DNA of 27,263 nucleotides from a virus, in the IMG/VR virus record IMGVR_UViG_3300032235_000621, positions 1 through 27,263 of that record, one strand, 5' to 3'. This document shows positions 4,564-25,745 of the stretch, piece after piece (positions within the stretch are counted from its first letter, which is position 1; each line of letters starts with the position of its first letter). Made by a program: the position numbers and the translations under genes. The notes under the pieces were generated by a model that was given only the letters and a program-made list of their open reading frames with translations, searched no databases and was not told the origin of the DNA.

Positions 4564-5279
4564 AGTTTACTTAATTGTCTATTTAAAAATTGTGCCATTT
4601 CGGGACTTGCTTCTTTTTTGCTACCAAAATACACCCATCTGTCGTCGTCAGTAAGAGCAAAGTCTGTGTTTTTATATCGCAAAATTAACGGGTCTGCAGA
4701 ATTAACCACTGACACACTTTGAGCAATCCCGGGCGCAGGTTCGTCAGTTCGTTTTTTCTCTGCTCGGGCAATATTTTCTTGATTTTGTGATACCCATATT
4801 GCAGCATTGGATCTTATTTTTGTTATTTCCTTAAAATAATTTAATGCAGTCTGTCTATCTATTTTATTAGGCAGTGGTTCAAAAGGCAAAGTTTGTGCTA
4901 TATAGGATTTAATTTGCGGCTCTTCACCGCCTGCAAAAAATTCAAAAGCAAACATCCGCATATCATTTCTAACAGCCGTCGGATTAAAACTAGTGGGATC
5001 ATCCAGGTTCATGCCCTGATCTGCCAATCGAGTCTGGAAATATGCCAAAGCTTGTTTAGGCAATTCCTCGTTGATATCGGCTAAATTTTTTTTAAGTGAG
5101 TCTGTTTGGCGCTGCGCCCGTTGTGCTCTAGTTCCTACATCTCCTGATCCACCAGCTAGCCGGTCTAATAGGCCAATAGTTCCAGTTGCGGTGCCTCCTG
5201 CTATTTGGCCCAGGCCGCGGCCCACATTCTTAATACCTTGCCATACTCCGGCTTCAGTGATAACTTCATTTACTTTCAT
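4560..5279 (-). CDS. Putative internal head protein with capsid-targeting-like N-terminus
   Basis: A protein of about 239 residues starting MKVNEVITEAGVWQGI. The ATG at 5279 is preceded by AAAGGA at six bases, so I prefer it to an in-frame GTG six codons upstream. I7-T8-E9 fits the hydrophobic-x-Glu cleavage rule of T4 prohead protease. A Gly-rich segment (GRGLGQIAGGTATGTIG) follows, then a helical middle part. The C-terminal domain has strands (LILRYKNTDFALTDDDRWVY) and ends in a helix (SPEMAQFLNRQLSKL). Its stop overlaps the start of the ligase-like gene, so the two are translated together and may be packaged together. The molecular function is unknown. Confidence 0.6.
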   Translation of the reverse strand: MKVNEVITEAGVWQGIKNVGRGLGQIAGGTATGTIGLLDRLAGGSGDVGTRAQRAQRQTDSLKKNLADINEELPKQALAYFQTRLADQGMNLDDPTSFNPTAVRNDMRMFAFEFFAGGEEPQIKSYIAQTLPFEPLPNKIDRQTALNYFKEITKIRSNAAIWVSQNQENIARAEKKRTDEPAPGIAQSVSVVNSADPLILRYKNTDFALTDDDRWVYFGSKKEASPEMAQFLNRQLSKL

Positions 5280-5517
5280 TTGAAATCCTTTTAACACCGC
5301 GGCTAAATTTAGCTGTATCTTGGGCCCTGATGCTGTTTATTAATCTACGTTCTAATTCTTCTGCTTGTTCTTTATCGTAGTTTTCACGAATAAAGTTAAT
5401 AAGATTAATGGCTCCAGTAATGACGTGATTGGCTCGGCTTTCCACAAGATTCTCTTTATCTTTGTGTAATCGTAATGAATCTAGTTCTTCTAATAAACTA
5501 CGAGTTTTTTTCTGCAA
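5266..5517 (-). CDS. Small helical late protein, TTG start
   Basis: An 83-residue, almost wholly helical, highly charged protein (ANHVITGAINLINFIRENYD; EQAEELERRLINSIRAQDTA) with a basic C-terminus. It starts at TTG, with GGAG eight bases upstream and a perfect late promoter 23 bases upstream; no ATG fits. An ATT just before the TTG is the alternative. It is the first gene of the transcription unit that continues into the two capsid-targeted proteins, and it overlaps the next gene by 14 bases. It feels familiar from marine T4-like phages, but I cannot name it. Confidence 0.65.
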   Translation of the reverse strand: MQKKTRSLLEELDSLRLHKDKENLVESRANHVITGAINLINFIRENYDKEQAEELERRLINSIRAQDTAKFSRGVKRISNESK

Positions 5518-5557: not shown

Positions 5558-6337
5558 TTATAACCCATTTAGGTCCTTTAATATATTGTTCCATGTCAAT
5601 TCTCGATCCCAATAAAAAGGAATCCAGTTTGTTTCCTTAATTGTAGTAGTTAATCGATCTAGTCTGTTTTTTGAATAATAATAGGGTATTTTTGGCAATA
5701 AAAAATTAATAATCCACTCAAGATGGATTATAGGACTTGGTTGTACTTCATTCATTCTTATTTCTTTATAAATTTCTTTAAGGCTAAACTCCATCATTCC
5801 TTTCCACGGTGTGTCCCAAACCCATCGATCGTCGACTAAAATATCTTTTTGTTTTTCTGTAAGCTGGCAATCTTGAGTTAAAAAGAAATAATAGTTACTA
5901 TCTTTAAGCAATTGTTTAACTAGAAACATATTATTGAATAGTCTTAATTTTGCTTGTTCTTGTTGTATATAAAAATTATGATAATTCTTAACTTCTTGCA
6001 ACTTACTATCACTGCTTAACCACCAAGTTCTGCCAGATTGATGCACATAATTTGCGCCATATACTGCGTCGGATTTTATTGCTTCTTCCCATATGTTGTT
6101 TTCGATTACTTTGTCGAATCTATTAGGATGTGGCCATTGAATTAAAAATATACCGTGTTTGTCTTTTATGTATTGGTCAACAACGGCTGTAGTTAAAAAC
6201 TCGCTGCCTGCGCCTATACCCGACATATTGATCACTTCACAATTATCATATATTGCAGATAATAATGCAGGCCATTCTGGCCATATATGGTTGGCTGCAT
6301 AACCGTCCCCAAAAGTAAAGATTTTAAATTTTTCCAT
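5558..6337 (-). CDS. SGNH/GDSL-like protein lacking the usual serine
   Basis: A 259-residue protein. The start KIFTFGDGYAANHIWPEWPA and the later VINMSGIGAGSEFLT and IFLIQWPHPNRFD follow blocks I-III of the SGNH-hydrolase-like proteins common in phages (usual block I: FGDSFT). Here block I reads G10-D11-G12, with Gly in place of the nucleophilic Ser, so classical hydrolysis is doubtful and a binding or altered role is possible. The rest is rich in Trp, Tyr, Lys and Ile. It is the third gene of the cassette with the radical SAM and sulfotransferase-like genes and overlaps the latter by 14 bases. A late promoter follows it. The assignment rests on pattern only. Confidence 0.5.
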   Translation of the reverse strand: MEKFKIFTFGDGYAANHIWPEWPALLSAIYDNCEVINMSGIGAGSEFLTTAVVDQYIKDKHGIFLIQWPHPNRFDKVIENNIWEEAIKSDAVYGANYVHQSGRTWWLSSDSKLQEVKNYHNFYIQQEQAKLRLFNNMFLVKQLLKDSNYYFFLTQDCQLTEKQKDILVDDRWVWDTPWKGMMEFSLKEIYKEIRMNEVQPSPIIHLEWIINFLLPKIPYYYSKNRLDRLTTTIKETNWIPFYWDRELTWNNILKDLNGL

Positions 6338-7118
6338 AATCGATAATTTCTGTTGTATCAGCGAACCAAGACGCTGAATACAAATTGATAATATCTTTAC
6401 CTGTTAACTTATAGACCATCGACGAGACTATACCAAAATCAATGTCATTGAATTCTTTTGGAATTTGATGGTTTTTTCTATTAGATATATTTTCTAATAT
6501 TAACGAATAGTTCTTAGATTTTTCTACAATGTTGGATTGTTTTACTAAAAAATCTCGATGTATCTCTTCTAAGTTTGCAGGAATAACGAGATCATTGTTT
6601 TTAAAAAATTCGTTAAGTTTATCGAATCTATAAATCCAACTAAAAGGCAAATTTATACAGTCGGGCTTTTCGTTTACTAACGTCGATTCGGGCAACCAAG
6701 AATAAAAATTAAAAAACTCTTCTCTTATTGCATTGGGGGAGTTAGGATACTTTTCGTTGACCTTAGCTATAAAATTTTTTTTAGTTGTGGAATCGGATCC
6801 GATGGCTTTATAATAAAAATTATTTGTGTAAATATCCAGTTTATCATCCAGGAACACATTGATTAATTTATGATCAGGAAAATAATAACCAAGATTTGTA
6901 TTATTAAAATTATGTAAACAAACTACATTTTTGTTTTTGTCGCTTTTTTGAAAATTCTTTTCAAAATTCTCAAAACTACCTGTGATTGATTCATAATTAT
7001 GTTCTTGAGAGTGGAACTCTCCTAGTTTACCCGACTGAAAATTATAATCATTGTTTAGAACTCTTGCAATAAAATGCCCAAGACCGCCTGGCGGAAAATC
7101 AATTACTACTTTATTCAT
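6324..7118 (-). CDS. Sulfotransferase-like protein
   Basis: A protein of about 264 residues. I take the ATG at 7118, which overlaps the radical SAM stop and gives the start MNKVVIDFPPGGLGHFIARV. A strand followed by G11-G-L-G-H-F resembles the phosphate-binding loop of the phage sulfotransferase-like family (often GGxGxHF). The stretch VVCLHN, then YYFPDHKLINVFLDD, resembles the family's His and cofactor-side strand. The C-terminal half is helical and AT-rich, with KKNF and NNF low-complexity. It sits between the radical SAM enzyme and the SGNH-like protein with overlaps on both sides, so all three are probably made together. Activity and substrate are unknown. Confidence 0.4.
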   Translation of the reverse strand: MNKVVIDFPPGGLGHFIARVLNNDYNFQSGKLGEFHSQEHNYESITGSFENFEKNFQKSDKNKNVVCLHNFNNTNLGYYFPDHKLINVFLDDKLDIYTNNFYYKAIGSDSTTKKNFIAKVNEKYPNSPNAIREEFFNFYSWLPESTLVNEKPDCINLPFSWIYRFDKLNEFFKNNDLVIPANLEEIHRDFLVKQSNIVEKSKNYSLILENISNRKNHQIPKEFNDIDFGIVSSMVYKLTGKDIINLYSASWFADTTEIIDYGKI

Positions 7119-8202
7119 ATAAGTCTGACAATTCAGGAAATGCATCTTGCCATTTAGAATGCCGAACAATGTCCCATCGACTCACAAATGTTTTCCAACT
7201 TTCTAAATTTCCATTTAGTGTATATTGACTAATTAAATTGAGAAGTCGATGATCTTTACTGTATTTTTTAACTATTCTCTCATACAGGGGAGTTGATATT
7301 TTATCTATACTCCATGCGTTTCCGTAACAGGGATGTATATTAATTTCTACTGGATCTCCTAATCTGTTAACTGAAAAATTTTGATTCACCCATTCTTCAA
7401 ATTCTTTAAAATAAAAAGCATTTAAGAAATTAACTGTATATTCAAATCTAAACATTACATTAACTGGTGCATGATCGATGAGTTTAAACAAATTACCAGT
7501 AACTTTATCCCATTTCAATGGCCATCGGATATAGTCAAATTGCTTGTCTATTCCATCAGCTGACACACAGAATAGTATTAGTTTAAATTTATCCCATAGC
7601 TCTAATACTTCCTCTTTGGGATATATAGATCCGTTTGTGGTATATTGTAAAGTAACACGTTCAGGATTTTTAATTTGCTTTAAAAATTGATAGTGAGCAT
7701 CAGTAAATAACGGTTCCCCGCCATAAAATTTAATATAGGTTAACGATTCTAAGTCCAATGAATCGATAATTTTTTTAATTTTAGATTCTGGTGTAATTGT
7801 ATTAACAGGTAAAGTTTTTTTAAAAAATTTATTGTGTTCTTTAATCCATAATGTACTAGAAGATTTATCGCATATAACACAAGCGGCATTGCAGTTAATG
7901 TCGAGCCTCAAGTCTAGTTGATGGATGCTATTATTAGCAACGTCAGGTATCCAATCAAATGATGTTTGTCTAAGACTTTGAATGCCTGCATTTTCTAGTT
8001 CTTTGCAATTAAAACAGTTATTTGTCCAATCTGTTATCTGAGCAAATTCCTGTCGAATAGTCGACACACTATCTTCGACAGATAAGTCGGCTGCCTTTCT
8101 ATTTTTAAAATAGCAGCATGGCGTAATCGAAACATTATTAGCAGAATTGTCATTCCATAATGTCAGCCCGTTGCTCAAGAATCTACAAAAATTGTTGCTC
8201 AT
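7111..8202 (-). CDS. Radical SAM protein (phage twitch/SPASM-like type)
   Basis: A 363-residue protein. C104-N-A-A-C108-V-I-C111 is the CxxxCxxC motif that holds the catalytic [4Fe-4S] cluster, and G161-G-E-P is the SAM-binding GGEP motif. The order of strands after it (VTLQYTTNGS; LILFCVSADG) fits the partial TIM barrel. The N-terminal region has extra cysteines (C6, C29-C30, C63, C66), as in the twitch-domain radical SAM proteins of marine phages, suggesting an auxiliary cluster. Enzymes of this kind modify peptides or sugars by radical chemistry; the substrate here is unknown. The gene overlaps gp41 by ATGA and the sulfotransferase-like gene by eight bases, so it belongs to the same message. 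Confidence 0.85.
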   Translation of the reverse strand: MSNNFCRFLSNGLTLWNDNSANNVSITPCCYFKNRKAADLSVEDSVSTIRQEFAQITDWTNNCFNCKELENAGIQSLRQTSFDWIPDVANNSIHQLDLRLDINCNAACVICDKSSSTLWIKEHNKFFKKTLPVNTITPESKIKKIIDSLDLESLTYIKFYGGEPLFTDAHYQFLKQIKNPERVTLQYTTNGSIYPKEEVLELWDKFKLILFCVSADGIDKQFDYIRWPLKWDKVTGNLFKLIDHAPVNVMFRFEYTVNFLNAFYFKEFEEWVNQNFSVNRLGDPVEINIHPCYGNAWSIDKISTPLYERIVKKYSKDHRLLNLISQYTLNGNLESWKTFVSRWDIVRHSKWQDAFPELSDLYE

Positions 8203-9650
8203 TCTGCTTTTTTCAGTCCCGCTAGCATTTGTTTAAGCTTTGCATTTTGGGCAGCGCCGCCACCAATTCCACTGCCTGCGGGTTGTTCCCAGGCTGGTGT
8301 GCCTGTTGCTCTTTCAAATTTATTGGGCGCATCTGCGTCATCTGCACTAGTGGACCTTGCTTTAATGCTGCTCATAATGCTACCAACCTGTGGCTTTACT
8401 GTACCTGGTGTACCCTGTGCCTCCTCGCCCGGATCTGTAATACGTAGTGTGTCGATGTCATAATCTAAGTCTACTTTCATACCCACACCACTACTGCTAC
8501 GAGTTTTCATTAATTGTATCTGATAGCGACCACGCTCACGCATAGCTCTGGATGTAAAGATTCCAAATACATTGTCTGCTGTATTAATCTTACTAATACC
8601 GCCACTGATATGACTGTGATCAAATTCAATCTCCTCAACTGCACTTCTATTTAACTGGCTAGCTGTAATCATTAATACGCCAAATTCTTTGGCCAAGTTT
8701 CTTAGTTCTTCCGAAACGTATTTGTCTTTGACAAATAAATCATTGGGGCTGACTTTGGCACTGACAGGCATAACAAGATCCAAATAGTCTACCATGATAA
8801 AATCTGTTTTGCGGCCAGTCTGCACTTCAAGTTCTTTGAGATATGCACGAATCTGATTGACGTTGCTCTGCGCCGGCATATATTTGATTCTCATGCTGCC
8901 AGACTTTTTGCCCAACATGCCAATCTTTAATTCCACTGTGTCCAGTTCTTTAAAAATTTCTCTAGTACTGACATTTGCAGCCATGCTGTCAATACGCATG
9001 GCGCACAGTTCTTCACTGAGTTCCAAAGTCAAAAACACACCATTTAATCCAGCAACTACCCAGTTTAATGCGATGTTTTGCATGAACAAGCTTTTACCCG
9101 AACCCGATCCTCCGGCAAAAATATTCAACTCTCCGCGGTTCATCCCACCAAACAATCTCTTATCCATGGTGGGCCAACCTGTGCTAATCTGCCCGTTGTT
9201 GCTTTTAATTTTCATTAATCGAGCACGAGGATCTGCAAAGTAGTCTGTGCCCATGTCTTTGGTTAGACTGATCTGTACTGCATCTTTGATAATCTTTTCA
9301 ATGGGGTCGAAGTCCCCTTTTTCAATCATATCTGCGGCCTTGAGCACTGCACGTTCTAATTCATATTTCTTAGTAAAGCCTTCAAACTCGATCATAAACC
9401 AATCATAATGATTTTCGCCCAAGTCCGGAACAGGCTTTAAATCTGTGCCTGTGACTGCACGAATTTGTTCAGCAGTGGGCATGGCTTTGTGTGCATCAAC
9501 ATGTTCTTTGATAAATTTGGCAGCAGATTTTAAACTACGATCAAAATTCTCTGGATTGTAGATATTCTGAACACGCACATAGCTTTCTGAATTTTGCAAC
9601 ATCATTTCCAAAAACAATTTTTGGAGATCAACACTATAGTCTTTAGTCAT
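8199..9650 (-). CDS. 41: Replicative DNA helicase gp41 (DnaB-type)
   Basis: A 483-residue hexameric 5'-3' helicase of the T4 replisome. The N-terminal helical domain (residues 1-150) is followed by a RecA-like motor. The Walker A loop is G180-G-S-G-S-G-K-S187, the Walker B strand is FIMVDYLDLV with Asp288, and a later GISKINTADNVFGIF fits the DnaB family. The length matches T4 gp41 (475). The C-terminal 80 residues are Ala/Gly/Ser-rich and end LKQMLAGLKKAE, probably the tail that contacts other replisome proteins. It overlaps primase by ATGA, matching the functional gp41-gp61 primosome. The radical SAM gene downstream is an accessory insertion compared with T4. Confidence 0.93.
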   Translation of the reverse strand: MTKDYSVDLQKLFLEMMLQNSESYVRVQNIYNPENFDRSLKSAAKFIKEHVDAHKAMPTAEQIRAVTGTDLKPVPDLGENHYDWFMIEFEGFTKKYELERAVLKAADMIEKGDFDPIEKIIKDAVQISLTKDMGTDYFADPRARLMKIKSNNGQISTGWPTMDKRLFGGMNRGELNIFAGGSGSGKSLFMQNIALNWVVAGLNGVFLTLELSEELCAMRIDSMAANVSTREIFKELDTVELKIGMLGKKSGSMRIKYMPAQSNVNQIRAYLKELEVQTGRKTDFIMVDYLDLVMPVSAKVSPNDLFVKDKYVSEELRNLAKEFGVLMITASQLNRSAVEEIEFDHSHISGGISKINTADNVFGIFTSRAMRERGRYQIQLMKTRSSSGVGMKVDLDYDIDTLRITDPGEEAQGTPGTVKPQVGSIMSSIKARSTSADDADAPNKFERATGTPAWEQPAGSGIGGGAAQNAKLKQMLAGLKKAE

Positions 9651-10705
9651 ATTTTATTAGCTAACAATTTAATTTTTAATGGATTGGATTCTTTGGCATC
9701 TAGAATAGATTTCATAACAAACAGTTTTCCGTATAATTGAACTGCATGATTAATATCTTTTGCAGTACCTTTCCAAATTGGAAAACTCACACTCCATCCG
9801 TATTCTATTGCACGATTAATAGTTTGTTGCCCGGGCCAAACTTCCTTGCCTTGTTTGTTGACATGTTTGTCGAAGTCTGGAACTACAATTACTTCTCGTC
9901 CCAATGACTCTATTAGTTCTGCCTGCTGCTCACTGATATCATTGGTCTGTGTACTTACCCCATCTACGCTCATAGCATCAAACGGACCTTCACAGACAAT
10001 GACAAATTTACTGTCCGGTTTTTGTTCATCTAAATTAAAAACAAAATGGGCAGGATGATCACTGTGATATTTGGGTTTAACATCGTCATTTGATGCTCTT
10101 GCCGTATATCCTACTACTTCACCTTTGTATTTAAAAGGAATAATAACACGATGTGATAATTTATATTCTACTTCGGGAGTCCAATAAAATTCATAACGTT
10201 GCATATCAATTTTTCTTTGATATACATAATCAACTGCATGTTTAAAACCTTGTGGATAGTCAAGACTATCTGCTAGTTCATAAAATTCAACCAGGGCCAT
10301 AAAACTTGACGCTTCATCTGGTAATTTTCGAGCAGTGAACGTTATTTCTTCTTCGACTCCAGCTTTGATGTCTTCGGGTTGAATTAAGTCTTTGATCCTC
10401 AGTGCTTCAACTACTAGTCGTTGTATTTCGTTAACATCTGCGCCTAACCAATTGAGAAATTTTCGATATTTGAAACTCAGTGGTCTGCCAGGTTGATAAC
10501 CAGTCTTAAATCCACAATTAAAGCAGTGCCAGCTTACTCCGCCGTCTTCGTTGACTATTAGTCCGCCACGTCCTCTTGTATCTTGATTGTCGCCGTTGTG
10601 AATACAACAAACAGCATTACCCGACAACCAACCAGACTGGGACTTTTTAGTTTTACGACTTTGAGTCCATAATTGCTGCGTATAATTTGCTACTTCATGT
10701 ATCAA
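9647..10705 (-). CDS. 61: DNA primase gp61
   Basis: A 352-residue primase that makes RNA primers for the lagging strand together with gp41. The zinc-binding domain has C33-C34-x-H36 and H60-C61-F-N-C64. The TOPRIM catalytic domain has VIVCE219GPFD223 and VVPD257FD259. The C-terminal end IKLLANKI is typical of the family, and the length is close to T4 gp61 (342). The start is TTG at 10705, inside the last codons of the GIY-YIG endonuclease. The nearby ATG at 10698 is out of frame and closes after two codons. Weak initiation or coupling to the endonuclease is therefore expected, unless translation begins further upstream in the same open frame. Confidence 0.9.
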   Translation of the reverse strand: MIHEVANYTQQLWTQSRKTKKSQSGWLSGNAVCCIHNGDNQDTRGRGGLIVNEDGGVSWHCFNCGFKTGYQPGRPLSFKYRKFLNWLGADVNEIQRLVVEALRIKDLIQPEDIKAGVEEEITFTARKLPDEASSFMALVEFYELADSLDYPQGFKHAVDYVYQRKIDMQRYEFYWTPEVEYKLSHRVIIPFKYKGEVVGYTARASNDDVKPKYHSDHPAHFVFNLDEQKPDSKFVIVCEGPFDAMSVDGVSTQTNDISEQQAELIESLGREVIVVPDFDKHVNKQGKEVWPGQQTINRAIEYGWSVSFPIWKGTAKDINHAVQLYGKLFVMKSILDAKESNPLKIKLLANKI

Positions 10706-11354
10706 GACGAGTGACTTTCCAGTTGTTTTGATCTTTTCTTTTTCTTACGGTTACTGTGTTAGTATAACACTTTCTGTAAGCAGAAAACAACTGCCAGTAA
10801 CTTACTTTTAGCTCATTTTTGTACTGTTCGGCAAAATCTTTTAGACCGATATTAGTAGTCCAGACTTTACCTTCTGGTGATTCAATTCTATACGATCCCT
10901 TATGCGACTCACTTTTGCGTTGTTTGGTCTCTATTGAATCTGGAAAAGTTTGATATCTTTTCTTTTGCCCGACACTACAGTTTTGACTTCTTGATTGTTT
11001 CTTTTCTTTTGACATATTGGCATGATGTTTTAGTGCATTGTTTCTTGCACATTCTGAATCCACTCCATCCCCACCTGTTGTCATATTATACCCATAATCA
11101 ACAGAATTATAATGTGCAATCCAGTAAATTTCCCTATCGTTTAATTCTTGTTTTGACCATTCATCGTTTCTTTCGATGATTTCAAATTTCATACTATTCC
11201 ACGTATATTTTCTGATAGCATTTACTATTTTTCTATCAGTTGTATCTTTATGTTCAAGTAAGCTATACCAATATTTCTTTTTATCGTAATTAACTTTTGA
11301 TTGCCCGACATAATGTTTGCCAGAAGGAGAGGTAATAAGATAAATGTATTTCAT
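10695..11354 (-). CDS. GIY-YIG homing endonuclease
   Basis: A 219-residue site-specific nuclease that spreads its own gene into related phages. From the ATG at 11354 it begins MKYIYLITSPSGKHYVGQS, the GIY-YIG motif (Y3-I-Y5, Y15-V-G17). The remaining active-site residues are visible as R48, E75 (in LNDREIYWI) and N90 (in YNMTTGGDG). Residues 105-160 are a Lys/Gln/Ser-rich linker like those of T4 Seg and I-Tev enzymes, followed by a DNA-binding C-terminus. An in-frame TTG five codons earlier is less likely. A 7/8 late octamer ends five bases before the ATG. The 3' end overlaps the primase start. It is free-standing, with no intron visible around it. Confidence 0.88.
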   Translation of the reverse strand: MKYIYLITSPSGKHYVGQSKVNYDKKKYWYSLLEHKDTTDRKIVNAIRKYTWNSMKFEIIERNDEWSKQELNDREIYWIAHYNSVDYGYNMTTGGDGVDSECARNNALKHHANMSKEKKQSRSQNCSVGQKKRYQTFPDSIETKQRKSESHKGSYRIESPEGKVWTTNIGLKDFAEQYKNELKVSYWQLFSAYRKCYTNTVTVRKRKDQNNWKVTRLDT

Positions 11355-11359
11355 ACATT

Positions 11360-11367
11360 TATTTATC
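11360..11367 (-). promoter_or_regulatory. Probable late promoter GATAAATA
   Basis: Seven of eight bases match TATAAATA. It is followed by AATGT and then the endonuclease ATG, the same spacing seen at two other starts in this window, giving a leaderless message. T4 homing endonucleases are also commonly late-expressed. Confidence 0.5.
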
Positions 11368-11484
11368 AACTAACAGTTAAAACAAATTCTTCTTAGCGGG
11401 CAGTATGCTTAGGGTATAATCCTGTACAGAGTTGAACATCAGTGTTAGTATACACTAATTTTTGGGTGAAATCAAATAGTTTTA

Positions 11485-18764: not shown

Positions 18765-19508
18765 TTACTTTGTATTCAACGCTGCGGACAAATTGTCAAT
18801 GAACGGGTAATTTTGATTAAACCCTACAAAGAAATTAACATCAAGTACAGAAATTATTGCACCAGCAGGCGCTCCAGTTAGGCTACCAGTTTCCCACATT
18901 GCTGCTACATACTCGGACCCAGTAAATGCACTGGTCATTGCAGTGCCTGTGCCCAGGCTAGTAAACGTACCTGGTCTTCCAAAAACAATACTATTAGAAC
19001 TATTAGCTAATAAAAATTCAGGTTGTACTGTGACTGCTGCACTATATGCATATTCTGTTGAACTTCTTACAACATTGCCACCGCCTAAGGTAGTCACAAA
19101 TGTGTCAATGGCATTATCCCTGACTCCAAGATCACTGTTTTCACCTAATATGAACATGGCTCCACCACTTTGTAAATAGTTGAACAATTTACTAGTAGGA
19201 TTATTGGGATTTGTCACATACGGGCTCGCATAACCAATATCCCAAATATGTGCAAACTGTGACAAGTTTAATGTGTTTAAATCTGCATAACTTTGAACCA
19301 AAGAAGTTGTAAATCCCAAAGTTGCTTCTCTTGCCTGTATTACAGGGTAGATATTGGTTGCAGGATTTATATCACCAGAATTATTATAATAATTAGTATC
19401 CCCGCCCGGGCCATCTGTTAAAGGATCATAAAAAACGAGAACATTTTTTTTATACCCTCTGCTAGCAGGTCTATTATAGTTAAACCCAAGTCTACTTGCT
19501 CCTATCAT
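18765..19508 (-). CDS. Putative alpha/beta (GATase-like) fibre-associated protein
   Basis: A 247-residue protein. After [20 protein letters not shown] comes an alternating strand-helix pattern (NVLVFYDPLTDG; FAHIWDIGYAS; LFNYLQSGGAMFILGENSDL; DTFVTTLGGG). This resembles the flavodoxin-like fold of GATase1/ThuA-type domains, with the phrase 'yLqsGGamfilGEN'. No complete catalytic triad can be assigned. The C-terminal half is Thr/Ser/Gly-rich like a structural protein. It lies between the collagen-like protein (overlapping TAATG) and the 969-residue fibre, so it is probably a virion component. An enzymatic role, for example on host surface glycans, is only a possibility. Confidence 0.5.
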   Translation of the reverse strand: MIGASRLGFNYNRPASRGYKKNVLVFYDPLTDGPGGDTNYYNNSGDINPATNIYPVIQAREATLGFTTSLVQSYADLNTLNLSQFAHIWDIGYASPYVTNPNNPTSKLFNYLQSGGAMFILGENSDLGVRDNAIDTFVTTLGGGNVVRSSTEYAYSAAVTVQPEFLLANSSNSIVFGRPGTFTSLGTGTAMTSAFTGSEYVAAMWETGSLTGAPAGAIISVLDVNFFVGFNQNYPFIDNLSAALNTK

Positions 19509-20497
19509 TATGCATATCCAGTGGTTAATGTTGCATAATAATTTGTGCCATCATAGAACATATTCATTATGTCTATAGAATTGGCCGCAGTGCTTAAAGT
19601 TTTAAAATTGCCAGCAAATTTATAATTTGCGTTAGGAGTTAATAAACGATTTCCAGTGGCATCTTGGATAAAAATTAATGTTAAACTTTGTCCAAGTATC
19701 ATATCAGTTGGCGTAGACAAAGTTACATTTCCAGTCAAAGTTGAAGTCTGTACAGATCCGTTAGATCTATTTGGTGTAAATGTTCCAGAAACATTGCCAA
19801 CAGAATATAAAGTATCAATTGGCCCTGGTATGGTTACAGTTACTATATTAGAGACATTCGTTGCAGTTACACCTTCTCCCACAAAATTCAAAGTAGAAAC
19901 ATTACCGGTAATTGTGGTTCCTTCGTCTTTTACTGTAATTTCTGACCCGGGTCCTTGTGGTCCTTGTGGTCCTGGTACATTACTGGTACCTGCAGGACCT
20001 TGTGGTCCTTGTGGTCCTTGTGAACCTTGCGGGCCTGATCCTTGTGGTCCTTGTGGTCCTTGTGAACCTTGCGGGCCTGAACTACCAGTAAAACCCACTG
20101 GGCCTGGATTGCCTTGTGGTCCTTGTGGTCCTTGTGGTCCTTGAACTCCAGTGGGTCCTTGTGGTCCTACTTCTCCTTGTGGTCCTTGTGGTCCAGTATT
20201 ACCAATTGGGCCTTGTGAACCTTGATTACCAATCGGACCTTGTGGACCTTGTGGGCCTGGCACGTTACTAACGCCGCTTGGACCTTGTGGTCCTTGTGGT
20301 CCTTGTGAACCGGTGTTGCCAGCCTGACCCTGCGGACCCGTAGGTCCTTGAACACCCCTTAATCCCGTTACTCCAGCCGGTCCTTGTGGTCCTTGTGGCC
20401 CAGCTACGGTGCTGTTTGCTCCAGCAGGTCCTTGTGGTCCTTGTGGTCCTTGGGGGCCTGTTGGGCAAGGGATTCCTAATAGGCTTTCTAAACTCAT
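19508..20497 (-). CDS. Collagen-like fibre protein
   Basis: A 329-residue protein. Residues 14-184 are Gly-X-Y triplets dominated by GPQ, GPA and GPT, which fold as a collagen-type triple helix. Short breaks (ANSTVAG, SGVSNV, TSNV) interrupt the triplets. The C-terminal 145 residues form a beta-rich trimerisation or tip domain ([36 protein letters not shown]). Collagen-like segments are known in phage tail fibres, where they act as stiff rods. AAGGAA precedes the ATG. It lies directly after the BppU-like protein, which may anchor it. Confidence 0.9.
19946..20458 (-). repeat. Tandem 9-base repeats encoding Gly-Pro-Gln
   Basis: Imperfect tandem copies of GGACCACAA (seen on the plus strand as ttgtggtcc) encode the collagen-like triplets. 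Runs of identical units, for example around 20105-20145 and 20285-20310, make slippage or recombination likely, so the triplet number may vary between related phages. Confidence 0.9.
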
Positions 20498-22065: not shown

Positions 22066-22745
22066 AGTCCCGCCTTTTGTAAAATATCTTTGACCCATTC
22101 TGTGTCTGCTGCATAGTCTGTAAACTTACGTTGCCAATAATCGGGATCAATCCAGGGCATTAGGATTGCCAGTTGTTCTTGATTCAATGAACTAAGAAAA
22201 TCAATTCCACTGGAACAGTTAAACACTATCCAAGGGCTAATACGTCCGTTTGAAATATGATGAACTATACGATTGCCAGACCCTAATCTAAAGTAATTAT
22301 TGAAGTTATTTTGCAGTATTGTATCAATGTCTGCGTAGTCTTGCATTTCTTTTAAGGCACGCTCTATTGCATCTTGTACAGCTTCTTTTTTCATATACTC
22401 AGATAACCATTCCAAGTATAGCACTTCTTTACACCAATGATCTAATTTTTTATTGTTCTTTAACAACCAATTTGTAAAATTACTTACATTGATACATCTG
22501 ATTGCTGTTACATGTCTGCCATATTTGACAAATGCAGTATAGTACGGACTGGTTGCAAAATCTTCGTAGGTTTTTAATCGAGCACTGCCTTGGGATACTT
22601 CGTAAAATTTTAAATAAGACTTGAACCCGAGCTGGACTCCTGTTTCATTTTGCTGTTGCCATCTACGTTTGGGTTCACATAAATGTGCAATCAGAGTACT
22701 TTCTTTAATATAAGATTTACCACAATACCGACAACTATAGCTCAT
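22062..22745 (-). CDS. Zinc-finger conserved phage protein
   Basis: A 227-residue protein. The N-terminus has a C2HC zinc finger (C5-R-Y-C8-G-K, H21-L-C23), as in DNA-binding fingers. The helical body includes NETGVQLGFKSYLKFYEVSQ and SPYYTAFVKYGRHVTAIRCI, and the end IDPDYWQRKFTDYAADTEWV is well conserved in the cyanophage proteins I recall. Its exact role is unknown; the finger and the gp62/replication setting suggest DNA handling. It overlaps both neighbours by ATGA, so it is made together with the next conserved protein. Confidence 0.75.
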   Translation of the reverse strand: MSYSCRYCGKSYIKESTLIAHLCEPKRRWQQQNETGVQLGFKSYLKFYEVSQGSARLKTYEDFATSPYYTAFVKYGRHVTAIRCINVSNFTNWLLKNNKKLDHWCKEVLYLEWLSEYMKKEAVQDAIERALKEMQDYADIDTILQNNFNNYFRLGSGNRIVHHISNGRISPWIVFNCSSGIDFLSSLNQEQLAILMPWIDPDYWQRKFTDYAADTEWVKDILQKAGL

Positions 22746-23425
22746 ATATTATTTTGTTGTATGTAATTATATAGATATTCTACTAAAGGTAGATTTTCGT
22801 TACCTTGATAATGTTTACAAGAAGGGCTAACACCGACGTCGGTACTTGTCGAGCCCGCTTCGTGTAAAAATAAATTACTAGACCATGTATCCAGATTTAT
22901 TAAGCTTTTATTTTCTTGAATACATTTCAATTTCGGTTCGCTTATATGATTTTTCAATGACGACGACATTAGAAATTCATCACCGGGGGCAGAATATATC
23001 ACATGTCGAATATTTCTACTAGTTAAAAAACCACTTAGGCAAATTACATCATGAAAAAACATGTCCATATATTTGTGATTAACATCAAATTTATAACGAT
23101 CCTCGATATATTTGATATATTGATCATTTAAGTTTGCATATCTTAAATTTTTTATTCCAACTGGACTATAGCTGACCCAATGACGATTATAAGATTCAAT
23201 TTTAGGATTCCATGGGGCCGACTGTCTATTCCAAAAGGTAGTAGATATAATTGCAAAATCAACAGGTCGAGTTAATATATATTCTATTGTGCTTGTAAAA
23301 ATCCTATCGTTGCTTGATCCGGGCAAACTAAGATTGAAATAATTTTCGATATTTAATTTTTTAGCCAAGACTGGTAAAGAAGTTCCCCATGCTGCCCCAT
23401 AACTACAACCGTTTAACAACAGCAT
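22742..23425 (-). CDS. SGNH-hydrolase-like phage protein
   Basis: A 227-residue protein. Block I is LLLN5GCS8YG, with Ser8 in the nucleophile place (GCS for the usual GDS). Block II is N31-LSLPG36SSN39, block III is STTFWN66RQSA, and a His near the C-terminus (CKH205YQGNENLPLVEYLY) fits the last block. Unlike the relative at 5558-6337, the serine is kept. Such phage proteins are widespread but their substrates, possibly acylated sugars or proteins, are unknown. AAGGA precedes the ATG, which overlaps the gp62 stop as TAATG. An accessory gene between replication genes. Confidence 0.6.
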   Translation of the reverse strand: MLLLNGCSYGAAWGTSLPVLAKKLNIENYFNLSLPGSSNDRIFTSTIEYILTRPVDFAIISTTFWNRQSAPWNPKIESYNRHWVSYSPVGIKNLRYANLNDQYIKYIEDRYKFDVNHKYMDMFFHDVICLSGFLTSRNIRHVIYSAPGDEFLMSSSLKNHISEPKLKCIQENKSLINLDTWSSNLFLHEAGSTSTDVGVSPSCKHYQGNENLPLVEYLYNYIQQNNI

Positions 23426-24858: not shown

Positions 24859-24889
24859 GCTAGTCGCGATATTTGCCGTATCCACTAGC
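24859..24889 (+). other. Predicted 5'-terminal hairpin of the HNH message
   Basis: GCTAGT (24859-24864) pairs with ACTAGC (24884-24889). Inside, GATA (24868-24871) pairs with TATC (24879-24882) around a seven-base loop. It begins at the predicted transcription start, so it could protect the message or tune translation. Seen by eye; stability not computed. Confidence 0.45.
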
Positions 24890-24917
24890 TCTAACGATTA
24901 ATAAGGAATCATCAGCA

Positions 24918-25745
24918 ATGTATTTACAAAACAAATATACTAGTTGGTATAATAGCATTATCAGCAACGCAAAGTCAAGAACTTTATCAAAAGAAATATA
25001 TACCGAAAAACATCATATCATTCCAAGAAGTTTGGGTGGTAATAATTTAGATGAAAATCTGGTTAGGTTAACAGCTCGAGAACATTTCTTATGTCATTTA
25101 TTACTACCCAAAATGCTTACAGGAATCAACAAACGAAATATGACTTTTGCAATTTGGTCAATGTTAAATAGAGATCATTCTAAACAACGATCACGACACA
25201 AAATTAGTTCACATACATATCAAAAACTTAAAATTCAAGTTGCCCGAGCTTCATCCGAAATACACAAAGGCAAATCAAAATCAGAAGAAACTAAACGAAA
25301 AATGTCAGCAAAGGCAAAAGGCAGAACTTCTCTTAATAAGGGTAAGCAGATGTCCGAAGAACAAAAACAAAAAATGAAGGACACTATTGCAAAAAATGGC
25401 AGAATTATTTCTCCGGACACAGTTAAAAAAATATTAGAATCTCGAAAAGATTACACGCATTCAGAAGAAACGAGACAAAAGATAGGTGCAGCACATAAAG
25501 GTAAAACTCAAATTGTTACAGAAGAACAAAAACAGAAAATTTCTGCGACACTGAAAGGCAGGACACCAACTTGGCTAGTAGGTAAGCCTGCTCCTAATAG
25601 GGGAATTTCTCACTCGAGTGAAACTGTTGCAAAATTGAAACTAGCTGCACAAAATCGAGAAAGACTTACCTGCATTCATTGTGGTAAGACTGCGCCTAAA
25701 TGCAGTTTTACTCGGTGGCACGGTGATAACTGTAAGAACAAATAG
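24918..25745 (+). CDS. HNH homing endonuclease with NUMOD3 repeats
   Basis: A 275-residue free-standing homing nuclease. The HNH core is at residues 26-62 (EIYTEKH32H33IIPRSLGGN, then LTAREH56FLCH60). Next come at least four NUMOD3-type DNA-binding repeats (SEETKRKMSAKAKG; HSEETRQKIGAAHKG; TEEQKQKISATLKG; HSSETVAKLKLAA). The C-terminal zinc-binding segment is C-I-H-C-G-K ... H-G-D-N-C. The start is the ATG at 24918 with AAGGA upstream; an in-frame TTG 15 codons earlier is unlikely. It lies opposite to its neighbours and its TAG directly abuts the uvsW stop. Its target is probably in the uvsW region of related phages (inference). Confidence 0.9.
   Translation: MYLQNKYTSWYNSIISNAKSRTLSKEIYTEKHHIIPRSLGGNNLDENLVRLTAREHFLCHLLLPKMLTGINKRNMTFAIWSMLNRDHSKQRSRHKISSHTYQKLKIQVARASSEIHKGKSKSEETKRKMSAKAKGRTSLNKGKQMSEEQKQKMKDTIAKNGRIISPDTVKKILESRKDYTHSEETRQKIGAAHKGKTQIVTEEQKQKISATLKGRTPTWLVGKPAPNRGISHSSETVAKLKLAAQNRERLTCIHCGKTAPKCSFTRWHGDNCKNK

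Follow-up and report, generated by a model that had tools for sequence, protein, structure and literature searches.

The locus and its genes

The DNA analysed here is a 27,263-bp virus fragment, and the term window refers to the whole of these 27,263 nt. At 5558-8202, directly 3' of a gp41-like helicase gene, the ORF list of the window places a cassette of three overlapping minus-strand ORFs, in agreement with an earlier note on this DNA that had put three overlapping genes there. The cassette, the two genes that border its slot and two further genes referred to below are the following:

5266..5517, minus strand: 83-aa virion structural protein (phrog_11854, E 9.6e-19), the downstream border of the slot
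5558..6337, minus strand: P1, 259 aa, predicted SGNH fold (AF2 model, VIA structural comparison and hhalign)
6324..7118, minus strand: P2, the middle gene, 264 aa, predicted sulfotransferase-like P-loop fold, motif PPGGLGHF
7111..8202, minus strand: rSAM, predicted N-terminal-twitch radical SAM protein, 363 aa (NF033640 and Radical_SAM PF04055)
8199..9650, minus strand: gp41-like DnaB-type replicative helicase (phrog_19, E 2.4e-73), the upstream border of the slot
9647..10705, minus strand: gp61-like primase (phrog_47, E 3.7e-35)
22742-23425, minus strand: a second SGNH-like gene of the window, of the GCS type with the Ser kept, with relatives in contigs L041, L065 and L030

The overlaps amount to 4 bp between rSAM and gp41, 8 bp between P2 and rSAM and 14 bp between P1 and P2. 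The value for P2 and rSAM depends on the start assigned to P2, which was taken as ATG 7118 and not TTG 7169 of the longest ORF because the proteins of its relatives begin at the former position in the alignment. The three genes had also been said to sit on one message; the overlapping ORFs agree with this, and promoter and terminator scans of the region came out near shuffled expectation, so that it is the overlap of the ORFs that speaks for a single message and the scans add nothing to it.

Comparison with L001, another viral contig whose slot holds the trio in identical order at 75, 63 and 72% identity (rSAM, P2 and P1, respectively), indicated that the cassette ORFs are real genes under purifying selection. 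The substitutions between the two are biased to third positions in all three genes, and dN lies far below dS for rSAM and P1, with dS saturated for P2. The GC content of the cassette genes is 29-33%, against 42% for gp41, which is what acquired genes would show, and no more than about 1.5% of the stretches of that size in the window reach the AT content of the cassette. The gp41 of the window is closest to that of the PA5oct-group phages and Atu_ph07, whose genomes measure 285-490 kb, and the source is therefore probably a large environmental T4-like phage of the jumbo type.

The position after gp41 had been described as one where accessory genes are gained, and the relatives bear this out. 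In PA5oct the slot is empty, with the homologous virion gene following 40 bp after the helicase, and among the relatives it is hypervariable. These relatives have a second variable slot at the gp61-gp41 junction, where L212 holds an HNH-type gene. Within the window, a GIY-YIG homing endonuclease gene (10695-11369, minus strand) adjoins gp61, an HNH-type homing endonuclease gene, assigned by sequence (24873-25745, plus strand), adjoins UvsW, and a collagen-like protein with GPQGPQG repeats is encoded amid large tail-fibre-like genes (19508-20497, minus strand).

The slots of the relatives hold various other genes. In L263, L267, L269, L271 and L289, opposite-strand genes of about 567 codons resemble the alpha subunit of DNA polymerase III in their sequence (MTRGSAGSSLVCYLxxITDVDP), and in L050, L051, L052, L056 and L157 an opposite-strand gene adjoining rSAM looks, from its sequence, like a 2OG-Fe(II) oxygenase and has no Pfam match. 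Three phage slots (L234, L241 and L018) and two Bdellovibrionia contigs (L089 and L090) have in common a set made up of a B12-binding radical SAM gene, a short-chain-dehydrogenase-like gene and a twitch radical SAM gene, the B12-binding proteins of the two groups being 33-36% identical over about 490 aa.

The three predicted proteins

All three protein classes named in the earlier note stood up, each at its own level of confidence. The rSAM protein is predicted to be a radical SAM enzyme and a full-length member of NF033640 (N_Twi_rSAM), with a score of 192.4 bits against a cutoff of 170 and coverage of profile positions 1-398 of 398; it also matches Radical_SAM PF04055. Its CX3CX2C motif (C104/C108/C111) is kept in 134 of 134 aligned relatives. 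The N-terminal cysteine set, putatively of the auxiliary-cluster type, comprises C6, C29, C63 and C66, found in about 92% of these relatives, and C30, found in 87%. Both cysteine sets are shared with NF033640, and no feature that was tested sets the protein apart from that family, for which a substrate was looked for and none was found. Sequence searches of solved structures with rSAM returned distant radical SAM matches.

For P2 and P1, searches of Pfam, NCBIfam and PHROG yielded no family with a meaningful score, and sequence searches of solved structures gave nothing useful for either protein or for M11, one of the families that take the place of P2 in relatives. Their folds were computed. 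The best AF2 model of P2 reached a moderate pLDDT of 76.5, the other four lying at 50-66, and in a Foldseek search of the PDB 48 of its 50 top matches had the sulfotransferase fold (E 3.6e-3, prob 0.99). The best superposition with VIA, on 1ov4, gave a Z of 8.3, close to what common arrangements reach, over 185 aa at 4.4 A. A sulfotransferase-like P-loop fold is thus predicted for P2 with moderate confidence. The fold is shared with the cytosolic sulfotransferases SULT2A1 and SULT1E1, but P2 has no sequence-level match to these, and its P-loop segment PPGGLGHF is without Lys or Arg in 11 of 11 sequences. By the P-loop criterion, P2 does not qualify as a canonical PAPS sulfotransferase, as the basic residue of the 5'-phosphosulfate loop is absent. 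At the 3'-phosphate site, the likely strand-helix LDDKLDIYTNNFYYKA, which was placed without a residue-level structural alignment, has no Arg/Ser pattern.

The AF2 model of P1 is confident (pLDDT 93.3, pTM 0.91) and matches E. coli TesA (5tif) in VIA with a Z of 15.3 over 159 aa at 3.0 A. The SGNH fold is held in common with the SGNH/GDSL hydrolases, of which TesA is one, but the P1 family differs from them at the catalytic residues: in block I, GDG replaces GDS, so that the nucleophile Ser is a Gly, and in block V, QPxP stands in place of the catalytic His, which has become a Gln. Both changes are invariant in 49 family sequences. An hhalign comparison with GCS-type phage SGNH-like proteins (E 2.9e-11) set GDG on GCS and QPSP on HPG. 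Because Ser is Gly and His is Gln across the 49-member family, P1 as modelled has an SGNH fold without the Ser/His pair and is no classical hydrolase. Neither P1 nor P2, then, passes the catalytic-residue tests of the named enzyme families.

Pairing, gain or loss, and exchange in the slot

Scans of viral contigs with single proteins recovered only L001, L002 and L003, and alignment profiles were needed for more. The loci were sampled in order of similarity to the query, with near-copies among them, which makes the p-values given below for slot counts indicative. A P1 relative is found on about 145 stretches of viral contigs, and the trio, in the same order and slot, recurs in about eleven distinct viral versions. 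In the viral contigs found by the rSAM profile, rSAM lies mostly directly after gp41, usually without P2 or P1. Of 58 complete gp41-anchored slots, 33 hold rSAM, 5 hold P1 and 15 are empty; counted jointly, rSAM occurs without P1 in 31, P1 without rSAM in 3, both in 2 and neither in 22. Among the nearest relatives of the window, L214-L216 have rSAM only and L212 has none of the three.

The company kept by P1 is far more constant. For 46 of 52 distinct P1 sequences, the gene immediately upstream is of the middle type, belonging to M11 in 23, to P2 in 12 and to M12 in 11, and the two ORFs overlap in most pairs. Four of the six other cases (L204, L205, L220 and L226), as read from the sequence, carry M11 or another small protein, Gly-rich at its N terminus, at some other place in the slot. 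When the profiles of P2, M11 and M12 were compared, no significant similarity appeared, and the three are therefore treated as separate families, several of which fill the same position upstream of P1. To call M11 and M12 sulfotransferase-like would be a guess from their Gly-rich N-terminal segment, the fold having been predicted for P2 only. The M11-P1 pair is also present at another locus in a separate phage lineage (L144 and L155), where a tRNA-guanine-transglycosylase-like gene, again judged from the sequence, lies beside it.

The partner of P1 follows the P1 tree, with 9 changes of type among P2, M11 and M12 against 25.5 when shuffled. The rSAMs of the trios do not behave in this way: a single clade for them was rejected (p-AU 1.8e-10), and they fall at four or more places in the tree. 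The gain or loss of the pair can be seen in L020 and L023, which share 86% identity as far as the rSAM stop codon, at which L023 continues with P2-P1 and L020 passes directly to a tail-fibre-like gene. P2-P1 is thus present or absent as a unit, with its boundary exactly at the rSAM stop codon. The firm unit established by these computations is the middle gene with P1, and rSAM is often next to it but exchangeable, more tightly tied only in the P2 subtype.

The tighter tie is the chief argument for a single three-gene pathway, as the earlier note had envisaged, in which the product of rSAM would be the substrate of P2 and P1. Wherever the contig reaches far enough, each of the 11 distinct P2 genes is flanked by rSAM immediately upstream and by P1 immediately downstream; all 9 complete P2 slots contain rSAM, as opposed to 31 of the 53 slots that lack P1 (p 0.02, indicative only), and the ORFs overlap. 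The remaining evidence runs the other way. M11 and M12 rarely have rSAM upstream, and P1 slots with another middle gene or none hold rSAM in only 3 of 25 cases, against the same 31 of 53 (Fisher 9e-5, likewise indicative); furthermore, the trio rSAMs are of several origins, the pair is missing from L020 with rSAM kept, and the nearest relatives of the window have rSAM only or none of the three. A single pathway is therefore unlikely. The co-occurrence expected of the three genes holds in that the trio recurs and fails in that rSAM is mostly alone and P1 mostly without rSAM. Their independence, which had been named as the finding that would speak against a joint pathway, applies to rSAM and not to the pairing of P1 with a middle gene.

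A slot built of two separable units is, by our estimate, very probable. The slot would be a cargo site between gp41 and the virion gene in an environmental clade of T4-like, probably jumbo, phages. One unit would be the single N-terminal-twitch rSAM gene, common in the slot and often swapped, and the other the overlapping pair, consisting of P2, or M11 or M12 in its place, followed by the degenerate SGNH-fold P1. The presence of rSAM in every P2 slot counts against this division, and a functional tie between rSAM and P2 is possible within the P2 subset.

Proposed role of the cassette

The gene company found in relatives and the islands of pelagimyophages both point to surface chemistry, and for this reason the tailoring of surface glycans is favoured as the role of the cargo. 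Vibrio phage K566 has twitch rSAMs alongside GT8 and GT4 glycosyltransferases, and the bacterial contig L091 has a twitch rSAM with a UDP-Glc/GDP-Man dehydrogenase, a GT2 and a PMT/EpsG-type protein. The 264,637-bp viral contig L049 carries a biosynthesis-like island with several rSAM genes, together with carbamoyltransferase, AMP-ligase, Asp/Arg hydroxylase and SGNH-like genes. Tail-fibre-like genes adjoin the slot itself. A study of pelagimyophages describes host-recognition islands in which tail fibres and glycosyltransferases accompany radical SAM cassettes, and these islands were interpreted as serving surface alteration and the avoidance of coinfection (PMC7029224). A report of 2017 counted twelve radical SAM genes in one marine T4-like genome (PMC5332604). 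The pelagimyophage host recognition cluster resembles the present slot as a hypervariable island of T4-like phages with tail fibres and radical SAM cassettes; it differs in that the slot here lies between gp41 and a small virion gene, with a gp41 nearest to PA5oct and Atu_ph07, and the passages on it that were consulted do not mention a P2-P1 pair (PMC7029224).

In the proposed scheme, the pair and rSAM would be alternative or additive activities that tailor a surface glycan. The P2-type P-loop-fold protein would act as a group-transferring or nucleotide-binding enzyme, and P1 as its non-hydrolytic, substrate-binding partner. The target might be a glycan of the host envelope, whose alteration would shut out competing phages, or else the tail fibres of the phage itself, which are encoded next door. 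The glycan company is seen in relatives, outside the window itself, and some M11-P1 pairs adjoin a DNA-polymerase-like gene in another lineage; both observations weigh against the glycan role, which is put forward for the pair and rSAM tentatively, as a plausible one. A cargo slot of two units together with surface-glycan tailoring is the best explanation of the whole, with a probability that falls just short of even. The more specific version is a new two-component module: a P-loop enzyme of sulfotransferase fold, its donor site departing from the canonical one, would act together with a dedicated pseudo-SGNH protein on a surface acceptor, and an exchangeable rSAM could be combined with the two. 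This version is possible, on the unlikely side.

The retention of the P1 fold after loss of the catalytic Ser and His would also suit a virion protein of the tail or baseplate that binds without an enzyme partner, with P2 as an assembly helper, and virion and tail-fibre genes flank the slot on both sides. The patchy presence of P1 (5 of 58 slots) and the swapping of its partner families would be unusual for a structural part, and no structural family was matched, making this quite unlikely. The neighbouring replication genes gp41 and gp61, the DNA-polymerase-like and clamp-like genes read from the sequence near the M11-P1 pair in L144 and L155 and the carbamoyltransferase of L049 could instead suggest a service in hypermodification of phage DNA. 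This is decidedly improbable: the slot also adjoins virion and tail-fibre genes, the genes scanned included no member of a base-modifying oxygenase, hydroxymethylase or DNA kinase family, and SGNH-fold proteins are not known to modify DNA.

Rapid turnover of the slot, together with a weak match of the rSAM core to pVip (E 1.3e-6), would fit defence or counter-defence cargo in a phage hotspot, such as a viperin-like radical SAM protein. Viperin was rejected as an identity for rSAM, which scores 20.4 bits in the viperin equivalog model against a cutoff of 180 and passes NF033640, and P1 and P2 are without any PADLOC match, leaving very little probability for this reading. Twitch/SPASM-type radical SAM enzymes include peptide maturases, and rSAM has weak matches to several maturase models. 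A RiPP-like peptide modification system is the least probable alternative, to the point of being hardly credible, for all maturase models score far below their cutoffs, P1 and P2 belong to no RiPP-type family, and the overlapping genes leave no intergenic room for a precursor; the small precursor peptides that were to be looked for nearby did not turn up, as the ORFs of at least 20 aa on both strands, judged without ORF-by-ORF conservation, included no evident candidate.

Significance

Hypervariable islands that bear rSAM genes are already known from T4-like phages. The P1 pair, on the other hand, appears to be unnamed, fitting no family of Pfam, NCBIfam or PHROG and matching nothing in isolated phages: the 50,697 isolated phage records searched contained neither a relative of any of the three window proteins nor one of the P1, M11 and M12 proteins of the related contigs, and a literature search for phage rSAM together with a sulfotransferase or SGNH protein found no described system of this kind. 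What emerges is a recurrent, widespread and unnamed gene pair that can be told apart from a neighbour merely sharing its slot, and the cassette is probably surface-chemistry cargo of the phage and not one fixed three-step pathway. If the pair does tailor surface glycans, it would offer an example of a hydrolase fold retained after the loss of its catalytic residues, and would represent a testable way for large environmental phages to alter the surface of the host or their own fibres.
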